From the NCBI GenBank assembly GCA_016195085.1, contig JACQAG010000018.1, positions 1 to 64,000 of the forward strand: a stretch of 64,000 nucleotides of DNA. The letters are read 5' to 3'. A model generated the notes under the pieces. That model saw nothing but the letters and a program-made list of their open reading frames with translations, did not search any database and was not told the DNA's origin. The translations under genes were made by a program, and so were the position numbers. The first letter of the stretch is position 1. Every line of letters starts with the position of its first letter. This DNA is from Pseudomonadota bacterium (GTDB lineage: Bacteria > Pseudomonadota > Alphaproteobacteria > SHVZ01). Shown piece by piece: positions 26,886-34,487 of the stretch.

Positions 26886-26920
26886 GCGCTAAGCGCGGAC
26901 AAATTGAAGCCTATCACGCA

Positions 26921-27058
26921 GACCCTCACCCGCCTCGCTTACGCTCGGCACCCTCTCCCGCCTGGGGTGGGCTTTGGGAGGGGGTGCGGCGCACCCCCTC
27001 CCCGACCCTCCCTGGGCGGGAGAGGGAGGGACCCGCGTCTTCGCGGGAGGGTGAGGGT
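26921..27058. repeat. Composite (nested) GC-rich repeat
   Basis: The outer parts match the short-type copy at 21053-21122: GACCCTCACC at the left, GGGAGAGGGAGGGACCCGCG and GGGTGAGGG at the right. Inserted in the hairpin loop is a 49-nt element (26964-27012) that matches 56987-57035 at 41 of 49 positions, aligned by eye without gaps. The repeat has therefore been interrupted by another repeat. It lies between the binding-protein and OppB genes. Confidence 0.75.
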
Positions 27059-30077: not shown

Positions 30078-30487
30078 AAGATGGCATGCGGCCTTTCGCC
30101 CGGTCCCGCGCCAAGCAGCAAACGGCCGGTCGCAAACGCGGTCCGCAGCATGGCATTGATGGTTTCGATGCCGAGCGGCGATGCCGGAAAGTGCAGCATG
30201 GTCACGTCGGACACATAGTCCGCACGCTGCCACCATATTTCGCCGACCCAGGCCTCGACCTCGGCCCGGGCGCCGTGCCTCAGAACGACGCCATGGTTGC
30301 GGTCCAAGACCAGGGCGAGCGGGCCTTCGAGCCGGATCGGTACCCGCAATTCGCGCCGGGCGGTTGGCGACGGCAACCCCGCCTGCGCCCGCATCGTGCC
30401 GCCCGGCGAGGGATTGAGCATCCGTGCCGCGTGGTATTCGAGAATTTCTCCCTTGAGCGCGTAGTGAGGCGTGGTGTCGGGCGCCAT
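30074..30487 (-). CDS. Small hypothetical protein
   Basis: 137 aa from ATG 30487 (another ATG lies 9 nt earlier). Not recognised. It has a mixed alpha/beta pattern with a beta-rich middle (RVPIRLEGPLALVLDR, then VEAWVGEIWW) and a C-terminal helix (GIETINAMLRTAF). No signal peptide. It overlaps the end of the fucosyltransferase-like gene by 4 nt, convergently. No strong Shine-Dalgarno is seen. The codon pattern looks real in the C-terminal part. It may share the operator region at 30551-30587 with the divergent regulator gene. Confidence 0.5.
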   Translation of the reverse strand: MAPDTTPHYALKGEILEYHAARMLNPSPGGTMRAQAGLPSPTARRELRVPIRLEGPLALVLDRNHGVVLRHGARAEVEAWVGEIWWQRADYVSDVTMLHFPASPLGIETINAMLRTAFATGRLLLGAGPGERPHAIF

Positions 30488-30550
30488 GGACGGCATCGGC
30501 GAGGTCTCGCTGAGGGGGGATTTCCCCAGATTCAGCCTATGGATCCTCCC

Positions 30551-30587
30551 TTCCGTGTCGGCGGAATTTCGTTCCGTGGCGGCGGAA
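30551..30587. promoter_or_regulatory. Tandem 16-bp palindromes, candidate operator
   Basis: TTCCGTGTCGGCGGAA (30551-30566) and TTCCGTGGCGGCGGAA (30572-30587) differ at one base. Each is an inverted repeat TTCCG-N6-CGGAA, and they are offset by exactly 21 bp, two helical turns. They lie just upstream of a promoter-like TTGACA and between two divergent genes, the classic position for paired repressor or activator dimers. Confidence 0.6.
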
Positions 30588-30605
30588 CGCCGCTCCCGGT
30601 GCCCC

Positions 30606-30633
30606 TTGACAGGGTCCCGCGCGGGGCTACCCT
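30606..30633 (+). promoter_or_regulatory. Candidate promoter of the HTH/PAS-like gene
   Basis: TTGACA (30606-30611) is a perfect -35 hexamer, and TACCCT (30628-30633) follows after 16 nt, 32 nt before the chosen ATG at 30666. The tandem palindromes end 18 nt upstream of the -35 box, which would suit an activator. Confidence 0.45.
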
Positions 30634-30665
30634 CGGATATCTCCGGTTGCAGGATGCAGGCAGAA

Positions 30666-31787
30666 ATGGCCAGCAGCGCCATGGACATCGAGTCCTTGCG
30701 TGACGAGATGCGGCAGTTGGTTCGGGCCGCAGCGACGCCGGCCGCTCCCGGAGAGCGGACCAAGGAGACCATCGCCCGCGCCTCTCGGCGCCTGGGGTTC
30801 ACCTTCGGGCGGACGAAGCGCTATTGGTATCGGGAGATCGCCTACCCATTCGCCCTCGACGTCGAACGGGCGCGATCAATCGGCCGAAAACCGTCCGACG
30901 ACAGTACGGCCCACAGGCGCGGTGGCGCCCGACCGGCGCAGCACGGAGCCTTCATCCACGACGACCAAGGCGTCGCCTGGAGGCTCGGGTCGCCCGAACT
31001 GAAGGAGATTATCGGCCGCAGCGACGGAGAACTTAGCGTCGATCTCGGCGAATACGCGGTCAGATGCCTCGGCTGGATCGAAGCTTGGCACCAGCCGAAG
31101 CGGATGTACCTGCGCCTGGCGCCCGATATCGCGCATCCGCGGGCCCTGCTTTCGGTCTTCGAGGTGCTGTGCCTGTCGCAAGAAGTGGCGGTTTCGGTGA
31201 CGAGCTGGTGCGGGGATCGCTGGATCAAGACGAAGTTCTCGGATGCCGGCAGCGCCGCCCGCTCCTTCGCCGGAGCTCTGGAACGCGCTCAGAAAAGGCG
31301 GGCGACGCACTTCACTGCGCACCGCCAATCAGTCGGAACGCTCATTCGCGATCACGATCTGAAGCTCCTGGAGGTCCTTCGGGAGATCGGATCGGCGGGC
31401 GCCGAAGTGAGCTTGGCCAGCGCAATCAGCCTGGCCAAATTCAGTAGCGCTGCAGTCTGCATCGCTCATCGCGGAAGCACCGAACCGCATTGGTCGTTCG
31501 AGTACCAGCCGCCATCACACCGCGTATTTTCTCCGGAGGAATACAAGTCACTCACGCGCTTTCAAGCTGTCAGTTCTCCCGATCCGGAATACTTTGGATG
31601 GTGTGCGTCGTTCTACGACAAGGCTGCTGGCCTAGCCGAGCCGATTGTCGACGATGTGCGCGCGACGGTGAAACGGCGCTACCTTCCACCAATATCGTTT
31701 GCCTACCGACGCCTCTTGATCCCGACCAAGGCCTCCGAAGGTGGCGCGATCATGATTGTCGCCTCCCGCCGAGCTGCAAATGCTTGA
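30666..31787 (+). CDS. HTH-like protein with unknown middle domain and PAS_5-like C-terminal domain
   Basis: 373 aa. Residues 5-60 are helical with an HTH-like stretch (TKETIARASRRLGFTFGRTK), basic and plausible for DNA binding. Residues about 95-215 form a domain whose landmarks GWI..., R-x3-P and W-x3-W-x5-F recur in the protein at 32190-33056. The last 65 residues contain PDPEY, EP-x2-DDV-x-A and YRRL-x2-P, typical of PAS_5-like domains, and align without gaps to the same protein (19 of 63 identical by eye). Upstream in-frame ATGs exist; ATG 30666 is chosen for the GCAGGCAGA before it and because the earlier residues look non-coding. The likely role is regulatory, ligand or signal unknown. 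Confidence 0.6.
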   Translation: MASSAMDIESLRDEMRQLVRAAATPAAPGERTKETIARASRRLGFTFGRTKRYWYREIAYPFALDVERARSIGRKPSDDSTAHRRGGARPAQHGAFIHDDQGVAWRLGSPELKEIIGRSDGELSVDLGEYAVRCLGWIEAWHQPKRMYLRLAPDIAHPRALLSVFEVLCLSQEVAVSVTSWCGDRWIKTKFSDAGSAARSFAGALERAQKRRATHFTAHRQSVGTLIRDHDLKLLEVLREIGSAGAEVSLASAISLAKFSSAAVCIAHRGSTEPHWSFEYQPPSHRVFSPEEYKSLTRFQAVSSPDPEYFGWCASFYDKAAGLAEPIVDDVRATVKRRYLPPISFAYRRLLIPTKASEGGAIMIVASRRAANA

Positions 31788-31935: not shown

Positions 31936-32193
31936 TTGAGCGTGAGGCTAAAAACCACCAACAACTTGGCGCAGGTAGCCGAGTCGCTTCAGACATTGAC
32001 CCAGACCCATGGCTCGCACCCATCGGTCCCGGACGGCGATGTCGAGCAGGTCTTCGCGCTGAAATGGGCAGTTGCCTGCGAGGAGATGGCGCGAGCGCTC
32101 TTGCGGCTATCGGTCGAGCTCGAGGACCAATCGCGCCAACTCAAGGCCGATGCCTTGGCCTGGCGTGACAAGGCGATCGGTCGCCGGCGATGA
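31936..32193 (+). CDS. Small hypothetical protein, helical
   Basis: 85 aa, unrecognised. It appears to be almost all helix after residue 35 (FALKWAVACEEMARALLRLSVELEDQ), which suits a small dimer or partner-binding protein. The TTG start has AGGAG 8 nt upstream, a better spacing than the GTG two codons later. It overlaps the next gene by ATGA, so the two are probably co-translated and may interact. Confidence 0.65.
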   Translation: MSVRLKTTNNLAQVAESLQTLTQTHGSHPSVPDGDVEQVFALKWAVACEEMARALLRLSVELEDQSRQLKADALAWRDKAIGRRR

Positions 32194-33056
32194 GCGTTTT
32201 CCTGCTGATCGACGAGACGGGCGCACTGTTCGACGCAAGTCGCTGGGAGGTGCGCCTCCGTCTCGGCTGCCAAGGCACGACCTCCGAGGTCATCGCCTCA
32301 GCCGTCAAGCAACGTGGCTGGATCGGACTCGCCCATCACGCCACGAGTGTCGAGATCCATATGCGGCGAACGGATCCGGCGCCACGGACGGTCCAGCTTG
32401 CGATCGACCTCGTCATGGGAACGCTCGCCAGCAAGATCGTACTCGTGCATTGGGGCAATGAATGGCGTCGAGAGACCTTTGCCTCCCCGGCCGCGGCGAT
32501 CCTGCGCATCGAGGAGCTGATGGCGGCCGTCTCCTCGTCTGCGCAGGCTGTTCCTTTCCGCTCAACGTCCCGGACTATCCAAGATCTTTGGCGCGACGGG
32601 AATCGCACCTTGATCATGGCACTACAACAGTTCCAAAACCGCATCGGCATCATCGACGCTGGCGACGCATGTGCCCTGAGTCATCTACCGGGAATGGGCA
32701 CGACCTCTGTGTTCGAGCGGCCGAAGCTGAGCACCAGCCTGATTATTCGCGCCGTTTCGCCGTTTGTCCGCTTCTATGATCAACGGCGGCGACCTGCCTT
32801 CGAAGGCAAAGATCTCCGTCAGCAACCCAATCCGGATTACAACCGTTGGATCGTGGATACCTTCGATCGAATCATTGACGCAGGTGAACCGCTCCTCGAT
32901 GACGTCGATGCGGTGGTGCAGCAACCCGACGGTTTACCGCTGCAAATGTCCTACCGTCGAGTCGCCGCTCCCTATAGAACGCCGTCCGGCTCGCAGCTAA
33001 TCGTCACGACATCCGTGCTCATTCCGCTGCCACGCCGTGATGCGGTGAGTGCGTAG
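32190..33056 (+). CDS. Two-domain protein with PAS_5-like C-terminus, paralogous to 30666-31787
   Basis: 288 aa. Residues 1-115 match the middle domain of the protein at 30666-31787 in order and spacing (GWIGLA..., MRRTDPAP, VLVHWGNEWRRETF). Residues about 205-280 carry the PAS_5-like set PNPDY..W, EPLLDDV-x-A, LQMSYRRV-x2-P. It lacks the N-terminal HTH-like part, so it could be a sensor or a modulator of the longer paralogue. It ends convergently with the GNAT-like gene, overlapping it by 38 nt. No function is known to me. Confidence 0.6.
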   Translation: MSVFLLIDETGALFDASRWEVRLRLGCQGTTSEVIASAVKQRGWIGLAHHATSVEIHMRRTDPAPRTVQLAIDLVMGTLASKIVLVHWGNEWRRETFASPAAAILRIEELMAAVSSSAQAVPFRSTSRTIQDLWRDGNRTLIMALQQFQNRIGIIDAGDACALSHLPGMGTTSVFERPKLSTSLIIRAVSPFVRFYDQRRRPAFEGKDLRQQPNPDYNRWIVDTFDRIIDAGEPLLDDVDAVVQQPDGLPLQMSYRRVAAPYRTPSGSQLIVTTSVLIPLPRRDAVSA

Positions 33057-33828
33057 GCGCAGGGATCGGAAGCAACTTTCCTTCAGCGACTAGGCGAGCA
33101 TCGTGAATGAGCTCTCCGCGCGTCATCCATTCATGACGCACCGCCATTTGATAGGGCGGAGTATTGGGCGATAGCGAAGGCCGAATCCATTGGATACCGG
33201 TTTCTACACGCGGCCAACCGTAGACGTCACCCATGCCTTTTGCGTGCAAGACGTCTCTGATGCCGGAGATGTAGAAGTCAGGATCCCAGTCAGCGCAGCC
33301 CAGGAGCCGCACGAAGCGGCCTAGCACCTGCGATAGCCGGAAACCGTCCGCTCCCGCGCCGCGGAAGCGCGGATCGATCCAGATTCCACCCGAGAACGTT
33401 ACACGCCCCTTGATCTTCGGTCCCGAGGGGCAATTGACGACGTAGCTCTCGCCAGGGGGACACTGCGTAAGGGGATCGCCATAGAAAAGCCGCAAGCTCT
33501 CGCCGAACTGCTTCAAGTTCATGCCTTGCATGTCCAGCAGGCGGATCGCCGCCGTGGTAACGACGCGACCATCGCAGTCCTCACCTTTGAGCCAGATGAA
33601 ATTGCTGGAATCGAATTCGTGCAGCCGAAAGTCGAGGACGGGCATCAGCCGTGCTTGCGTCTTCTCGTTGGCAAGGCTCACCGCCCCAAACTCGGTCGGA
33701 TCCGTCTCGATCGAGAGACGCACGCCGCGCCTCACCGCGATGCGATCGAGCTCGAGCAACGCCTGCTGGATGGTGAGATCGAACGAGCGCGCGGCGGCGG
33801 CGGGGTGAGCGAGAGCTGCTTGGGACAT
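33019..33828 (-). CDS. GNAT-like acyltransferase, tentative
   Basis: 269 aa. The centre contains FSGGIWIDPRFRGAGADGFRLSQVLGRFVRLLG, which has the shape of GNAT motif A (a beta strand, then R-G-x-G and a helix), preceded by a VVTTAAIRLLD strand. The N-terminal 30 residues are Ala-rich and the C-terminal 60 are unassigned. ATG 33828 has AGGAGG 9 nt upstream, but that site lies in a long hairpin (33836-33895). DNA of this gene and of the two to its left looks lower in GC than the surroundings. Function unproven; a fold related to autoinducer synthases is possible but not supported by specific residues. Confidence 0.5.
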   Translation of the reverse strand: MSQAALAHPAAAARSFDLTIQQALLELDRIAVRRGVRLSIETDPTEFGAVSLANEKTQARLMPVLDFRLHEFDSSNFIWLKGEDCDGRVVTTAAIRLLDMQGMNLKQFGESLRLFYGDPLTQCPPGESYVVNCPSGPKIKGRVTFSGGIWIDPRFRGAGADGFRLSQVLGRFVRLLGCADWDPDFYISGIRDVLHAKGMGDVYGWPRVETGIQWIRPSLSPNTPPYQMAVRHEWMTRGELIHDARLVAEGKLLPIPAPTHSPHHGVAAE

Positions 33829-33835
33829 GAGAATG

Positions 33836-33895
33836 GACCTCCTGGGATCGTGAAGCCGACCGAGAACCGGTCGGCGCCCGAAGATCCCAGAGGTC
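33836..33895 (-). promoter_or_regulatory. 5'-UTR hairpin sequestering the Shine-Dalgarno
   Basis: Outer arms GACCTCCTGGGATC (33836-33849) and GATCCCAGAGGTC (33883-33895) pair over 13 bp with one bulged base. Inner arms GCCGACCG (33855-33862) and CGGTCGGC (33868-33875) pair perfectly around AGAAC. In the minus-strand mRNA the downstream outer arm contains AGGAGG (33838-33843), 9 nt before the ATG, so the ribosome site is paired. This looks like a translational switch, thermosensor or protein-binding operator. The trigger is unknown. Confidence 0.6.
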
Positions 33896-34006
33896 GCGGA
33901 GGAATCCGACTCGACAACCAAGAGCCGTAACGACGCGGGTGCGGGAGGCTCGCTGCAGCGCCCGCGCCGCCTCGCATTCAACGAAAATGCGCTGCTAATC
34001 GCGCCT

Positions 34007-34033
34007 ATTCGAATCGGCGCCCGAATCGATTCG
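34007..34033. promoter_or_regulatory. Clustered CGAATCG palindromes upstream of the GNAT-like gene
   Basis: ATTCGAATCG (34007-34016) contains the 8-bp palindrome ATTCGAAT, and CGAATCGATTCG (34022-34033) is a perfect 12-bp palindrome. Further GAATCG copies follow at about 34035 and 34061. They are in the intergenic region upstream of the minus-strand gene that starts at 33828. A transcription-factor operator array is likely, but no cognate factor can be named. Confidence 0.45.
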
Positions 34034-34094
34034 AGAATCGATCCCTGCGGTAATTTTCAGCGAATCGCCCGATGGCGGCTCCGTGCCTAGCGCC

Positions 34095-34487
34095 TCATTC
34101 GAGCGCGGTGCATTCGATCTCGATGTCGAACTCCATCGGCCAGCCGGCCACGGGCACGAAGGTGCGCGCCGGCGGATCCTTCTGGAAGTAGCGGCCATAG
34201 ACCTTGTTGATGACACTGTAATAGGCGGCGTTGGCGGCGTAGATGTTGACCTTCACCACCTTGTCGAGGGAGGAGCCGGCGGCCTCGAGCGCACGCTTCA
34301 GATTGCGCATGACCGCGTCGGTCTGGGTCTCGATGTCGCCGCGCACGATGGCACCGGTCTCGAGATCCAAGGGCGGCGTGCCGGAGACGAAGACGAAGCC
34401 ATTCGCCTTCACTACCGGCGACAAGGGCACGCCCAGCTTCTTGATCGCATCCGACATGACGGGGACGTTGACGATGATCTTGCTCAT
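34095..34487 (-). CDS. RidA-family protein
   Basis: 130 aa, the usual Rid length. It has the family pattern VKANGFVFVSGTPPLD near the N-terminus and VVKVNIYAANAAYYSVINKVYGRYF later. The conserved C-terminal Arg-centred motif of RidA is represented by PARTFVPVAGWP with Arg in the expected place. Such trimers hydrolyse reactive enamines/imines or act on pathway-specific acyl amides. It is the last gene of the minus cluster that includes a PLP enzyme, whose imines it might clear. Confidence 0.88.
   Translation of the reverse strand: MSKIIVNVPVMSDAIKKLGVPLSPVVKANGFVFVSGTPPLDLETGAIVRGDIETQTDAVMRNLKRALEAAGSSLDKVVKVNIYAANAAYYSVINKVYGRYFQKDPPARTFVPVAGWPMEFDIEIECTALE

Follow-up and report, generated by a model that had tools for sequence, protein, structure and literature searches.

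Does the hairpin in front of a GNAT-fold gene in an alphaproteobacterial genome mask the gene's Shine-Dalgarno (SD) sequence as a selected trait and, if so, what would set the SD free? The stretch of DNA analysed here, referred to as the window, comprises 64,000 nucleotides of contig JACQAG010000018.1 of a Pseudomonadota bacterium. An earlier note on this DNA had called the gene GNAT-like, placed its SD within a long leader hairpin and seen in that arrangement the design of an RNA thermometer, a small riboswitch or an autoregulatory protein site. A literature search found no description of either the gene family or the leader.

A GNAT-fold protein and its neighbours

Neither Pfam nor NCBIfam matched the protein encoded by the gene (Table 1). 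Its predicted structure, built from 52 relatives, has a pLDDT of 90 and displays the GNAT fold, in keeping with the name first given to the gene. Structural matches of the protein include N-terminal acetyltransferases, SpeG and the acyl-homoserine lactone synthases EsaI and RpaI; the substrate can therefore not be read from the fold by itself. The protein shares the GNAT fold with the LuxI-type synthases EsaI and RpaI. Unlike that group, however, it has no sequence family match (identity 12-15%), many other GNAT enzymes score equally well or better, and autoinducer-synthase models gave no match at E ≤ 0.1 for any member of our homologue alignment (A1). Relatives of the protein are less than 40% identical to it, and two paralogues encoded elsewhere in the genome show 37% identity. 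A scan of genome contigs with the window protein itself found no relative; a narrower alignment, used as the query for genome contigs, gave 24 loci. Homologues are present in roughly 5-10% of the sampled genomes of the class Alphaproteobacteria, with Rhodospirillales, Pelagibius, Ferrovibrio, Bradyrhizobium and Mesorhizobium among the named carriers.

The partner gene at 32190-33056 has relatives adjoining the GNAT gene, usually in convergent orientation, in 42 of 73 homologous loci. The second PAS-like gene in the window, in tandem with it, aligns with it by BLASTP (E 1e-12, 18% identity), and Pfam matched neither. Together, the GNAT-fold gene and the PAS-like gene look like an undescribed synthase/sensor pair. 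In Bradyrhizobium and its relatives (L081-L085, L088 and L090), the gene immediately upstream of the GNAT gene is divergent and encodes an XRE-type helix-turn-helix regulator. The RidA-GNAT intergenic region of the window contains, at 34001-34049, a cluster of overlapping palindromes of the types ATTCGAAT and GAATCGATTC, which are possible regulator sites.

The Shine-Dalgarno sequence is paired in a stable stem

Folding of positions 33810-33910 gave exactly the architecture claimed earlier, an outer stem of 13 bp with one bulge and an inner stem of 8 bp, and AGGAGG indeed lies in the downstream outer arm. On the minus strand, 33895-33883 pairs with 33849-33843 and 33841-33836, while 33875-33868 pairs with 33862-33855 around a 5-nt loop; two extra pairs (33878-33877 with 33853-33852) also form in the hairpin. 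Ahead of the start codon, the SD is therefore paired within a local stem that is stable, the defining arrangement of an SD-sequestering 5'-UTR hairpin. Upstream TTG starts, which would render the hairpin coding, were rejected because both the homology and the predicted fold start close to the ATG, which has a good SD.

Table 1 Features of the GNAT-fold locus in the window
Feature	Positions	Strand	Basis
GNAT-fold protein, 269 aa; without Pfam or NCBIfam family	33019-33828	-	profile searches, predicted model
SD, AGGAGG, within outer 3' arm; 9 nt before ATG at 33828	33838-33843	-	sequence
Outer stem, 5' arm, GACCTCTGGGATC; masks SD	33883-33895	-	fold
Inner stem, 5' arm, GCCGACCG	33868-33875	-	fold
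Inner stem, 3' arm, CGGTCGGC	33855-33862	-	fold
Outer stem, 3' arm; bulged G at 33842	33836-33849	-	fold
Convergent partner gene; predicted PAS fold in C-terminal half	32190-33056	+	predicted model
Second PAS-like gene, distantly related, same direction as 32190-33056	30471-31787	+	BLASTP
RidA/L-PSP family gene, upstream, same strand as GNAT gene	34095-34487	-	profile match

The minimum free energy (MFE) of this 101-nt segment is -43.8 kcal/mol, compared to -32.4 ± 3.3 kcal/mol for dinucleotide shuffles (z -3.43), and 2 of 200 shuffles were as stable. Within the GC-rich window, the stability of the bare hairpin is unusual but not extreme, falling in the top 1.1% of 71-nt stretches (142 of 12,786). 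We also calculated SD burial, defined as the free-energy cost of unpairing the SD region, and compared it with that of versions shuffled only upstream of the SD. By this measure, the SD of the window gene is buried beyond its shuffled versions (z 3.1-3.4, p ≤ 0.01), as had been proposed.

The hairpin occurs once in its genome and is therefore no dispersed repeat. Elsewhere in the window, a very stable inverted repeat at positions 26900-27040 (about -60 kcal/mol for 71 nt), of the type CCCTCTCCC...GGGAGAGGG, precedes an ABC permease gene closely and looks like a dispersed intergenic repeat.

Masking recurs in the gene family at the ribosome-binding site

SD burial was measured in 55 non-redundant homologues, in 184 control genes taken from the homologue loci and from the window, and at 58 starts of the PAS-like partner. 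The SD was significantly buried (p ≤ 0.05) in 19 of the 55 homologues, with a mean z of 1.24; z reached 2 in 16 and 3 in 10. Among controls, 9 of 184 SDs were buried (mean z -0.03), and among partner starts 3 of 58 (mean z -0.10). Homologues differ from controls with a Mann-Whitney p of 2e-7 and from the partner starts with a p of 6e-6, starts having been chosen by rule in all sets, so that some control starts are probably wrong. The sole control start with z ≥ 3 lies inside an ABC permease gene and was wrongly picked. Across Alphaproteobacteria, relatives of the GNAT gene carry such hairpins about seven times as often as other genes.

A second measure of masking, the MFE of the 60 nt ending at -3, gave the same picture, with 18 of 54 homologues positive compared to 8 of 184 controls. 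When the segment was moved 35 nt upstream, the counts became 4/54 and 12/184, respectively. Because the excess is confined to the GNAT family and lost 35 nt upstream, the trait is tied to both the family and the position of the SD. Positional pairing-probability profiles revealed only a modest excess, at both arms. The SD-masking leader is real, is of a known structural kind and is significantly over-represented in an undescribed GNAT-fold family.

About two-thirds of the homologues lack significant masking. On the protein tree, the trait requires at least 14 changes, four of them forced by well-supported branches, so that it either arose and disappeared repeatedly or is an old trait with many losses. 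Among the nearest relatives of the window gene there is no clear hairpin, save for a borderline case in one paralogue (z ~1.6). This absence, together with the 1.1% of window stretches that are equally stable, would fit a chance structure in the GC-rich leader of this particular gene, despite a real trend in the family. We consider this quite unlikely given the gene's own burial score, as z 3 was reached by only one of the 184 control starts; for the family as a whole, chance is an unlikely cause. SD masking is very likely a selected function in the GNAT family, and it is likely, a little less firmly, to be one in the window gene.

Masking recurs without a shared sequence

The hairpins of different clades share no sequence and cannot be aligned, nor do they have a loop or arm motif in common by which one factor could recognise them all. 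An aptamer or a protein-binding motif shared by the family is therefore disfavoured. Within clades, some substitutions preserve pairs (C-G to U-G in L020; A-U to G-U and C-G to U-G in L037) and others disrupt stems (L022, L034 and L086). Because changes among close relatives thus partly preserve and partly break pairs, covariation is neither shown nor excluded. The best reading of these data is that selection acts on masking itself and not on a particular sequence.

The inverted repeat could instead be a protein-binding site in DNA, placed around the promoter and overlapping the SD incidentally. An XRE-type regulator gene is near the GNAT homologue in up to 13 of 73 loci, and the 5' arm is often at a -10-like element, both of which would suit such an operator. 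However, arm spacing and sequence vary widely while the overlap with the SD is constant, and several stems (L020, L032, L033 and L037) keep G-U pairs, which a DNA palindrome would not favour and which fit RNA better than a DNA operator. An operator is therefore improbable.

The hairpin is probably too stable for a thermometer and matches no known riboswitch

Thermometers mask the SD with poorly conserved sequence, and as in ROSE and fourU elements, the leader hairpin studied here does so with weakly conserved sequence. If it were a thermometer, rising temperature would melt the stem and free the SD. Unlike ROSE and fourU, however, the window hairpin is far too stable by our energy model to melt in the physiological range: opening the SD is calculated to require 13.3 kcal/mol at 37 °C and 12.4 at 42 °C, and even at 60 °C the figure is 9.2; the hairpins of relatives respond to temperature alike. 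The SD is thus predicted to stay inaccessible at physiological temperatures, and the suggested thermometer design is very improbable.

SD masking is also common among riboswitch expression platforms, and the hairpin might be the platform of a ligand-binding riboswitch. This too is very improbable, since Rfam gave no match in the window, nor in 33800-34100 even at E ≤ 10, and found only tRNAs in 20 homologous hairpin-bearing loci. Nor are any nucleotides conserved between clades, and the short, simple hairpin offers little room for an aptamer. The earlier remark that no described family with this shape is known upstream of a GNAT-like gene is therefore supported, whereas the small-riboswitch design is not borne out as a conserved aptamer. 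Taken together, the hairpin probably acts as a translational lock, and not as a thermometer or a riboswitch of conserved sequence.

-10-like elements lie at the 5' arm in several clades

Four clades have a conserved -10-like hexamer that overlaps the 5' arm of the hairpin or lies directly before it. This element is TATAGT/TATAAC in a Ferrovibrio-like clade, TCTAAT in a four-species genus, TATGAT/TACGAT in another family and GGATTATT in Bradyrhizobium. The Ferrovibrio-like hexamer lies ~34 nt before the ATG, and in the hairpin-free Pelagibius clade a clear TATAAT is equally far from the start codon. Coincidence with the 5' arm was found in 14 of 26 cases, compared to 9.2 expected, a marginal excess by permutation (p 0.03) that loses significance when each clade is represented by a single sequence (p 0.31). 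A start ~7 nt downstream of such an element would leave the native mRNA with little or none of the 5' arm, and the positions of these elements suggest that in several related clades transcription may begin downstream of the 5' arm, a condition that the earlier note had named as refuting its reading. L031 and L088 contradict this pattern, since their strongest -10-like site precedes the whole hairpin. For the window GNAT gene itself, no promoter was recognised. If its transcript lacked the first half of the 5' arm, exposing the SD would, according to the energy model, cost ~4 instead of ~12.7 kcal/mol.

Exact CtrA-like sites (TTAA-N7-TTAA) are located about -140 to -10 before the GNAT homologue in L030, L108, L110 and L112, that is, in 4 of 73 homologue upstream regions, compared to 0.3 expected from shuffles and 0 of 178 controls. 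These sites fall in clades without the hairpin and suggest cell-cycle-type transcriptional control there.

Our preferred reading, to which we assign a probability of about 0.5, is that the hairpin is a cis-acting, SD-masking translational lock whose structure is selected and which recurs in the GNAT-fold family, read-through transcripts most likely being the ones locked. When both arms are present in the mRNA, the outer stem would hold the SD and ribosomes could not load. This would apply to transcripts entering from upstream, in the window from the RidA-like gene, which ends 266 nt before the GNAT start; a simple scan found no terminator-like site between the two. The gene's own transcript would start at or beyond the 5' arm and carry a free SD. 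We infer both that the hairpin blocks translation and that the transcription start decides between lock and no lock. That the lock acts only on read-through transcripts is plausible, at somewhat less than even odds.

This arrangement has a parallel in the read-through protection hairpins of IS10/Tn10-type insertion sequences, which lock transcripts entering from upstream. The SD is likewise in the 3' arm, and the 5' arm, as in IS10/Tn10, would belong to outside transcripts. Unlike in IS10/Tn10, the gene is chromosomal and encodes a GNAT-fold protein, not a transposase, and the start-site logic is here one that we infer. The leader of the ISPpu9 transposase also hides its ribosome-binding site in a 5'-UTR structure that lowers translation, and its opening is reported to be aided by an antisense sRNA (PMC8450116); no such RNA is known for the window leader.

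The ISPpu9 precedent bears on another reading, a regulated switch in which both arms are transcribed and a signal frees the SD through an sRNA, an RNA-binding protein or the gene's own product. By the energy model, a transcribed hairpin with both arms would block effectively. Moreover, the strongest -10-like site of L031 and L088 lies upstream of the hairpin, which would therefore be transcribed there. The usual PAS-fold, sensor-like neighbour, sometimes joined by an XRE regulator, suggests a signalling module. However, the hairpins have no common loop or arm motif for a shared factor, and we regard a regulated switch as unlikely.

Implications

Returning to the lock on read-through transcripts, a more far-reaching version is that it represents a new, widespread and sequence-free device of translational control, serving an undescribed alphaproteobacterial signalling module made of a GNAT-fold signal synthase and a convergent PAS-fold receptor, sometimes with an XRE regulator. 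The synthase would be silenced by the hairpin and the silencing bypassed only from its own regulated promoter. This version is speculative and, on balance, rather unlikely. If the lock reading as such is true, masking of the ribosome site in itself, independent of sequence, would have been selected and repeatedly kept in one gene family, and alignment-based RNA searches would miss such masking. It would also point to an unnamed GNAT/PAS pair that resembles a signal synthase and its sensor and that seemingly needs tight silencing.
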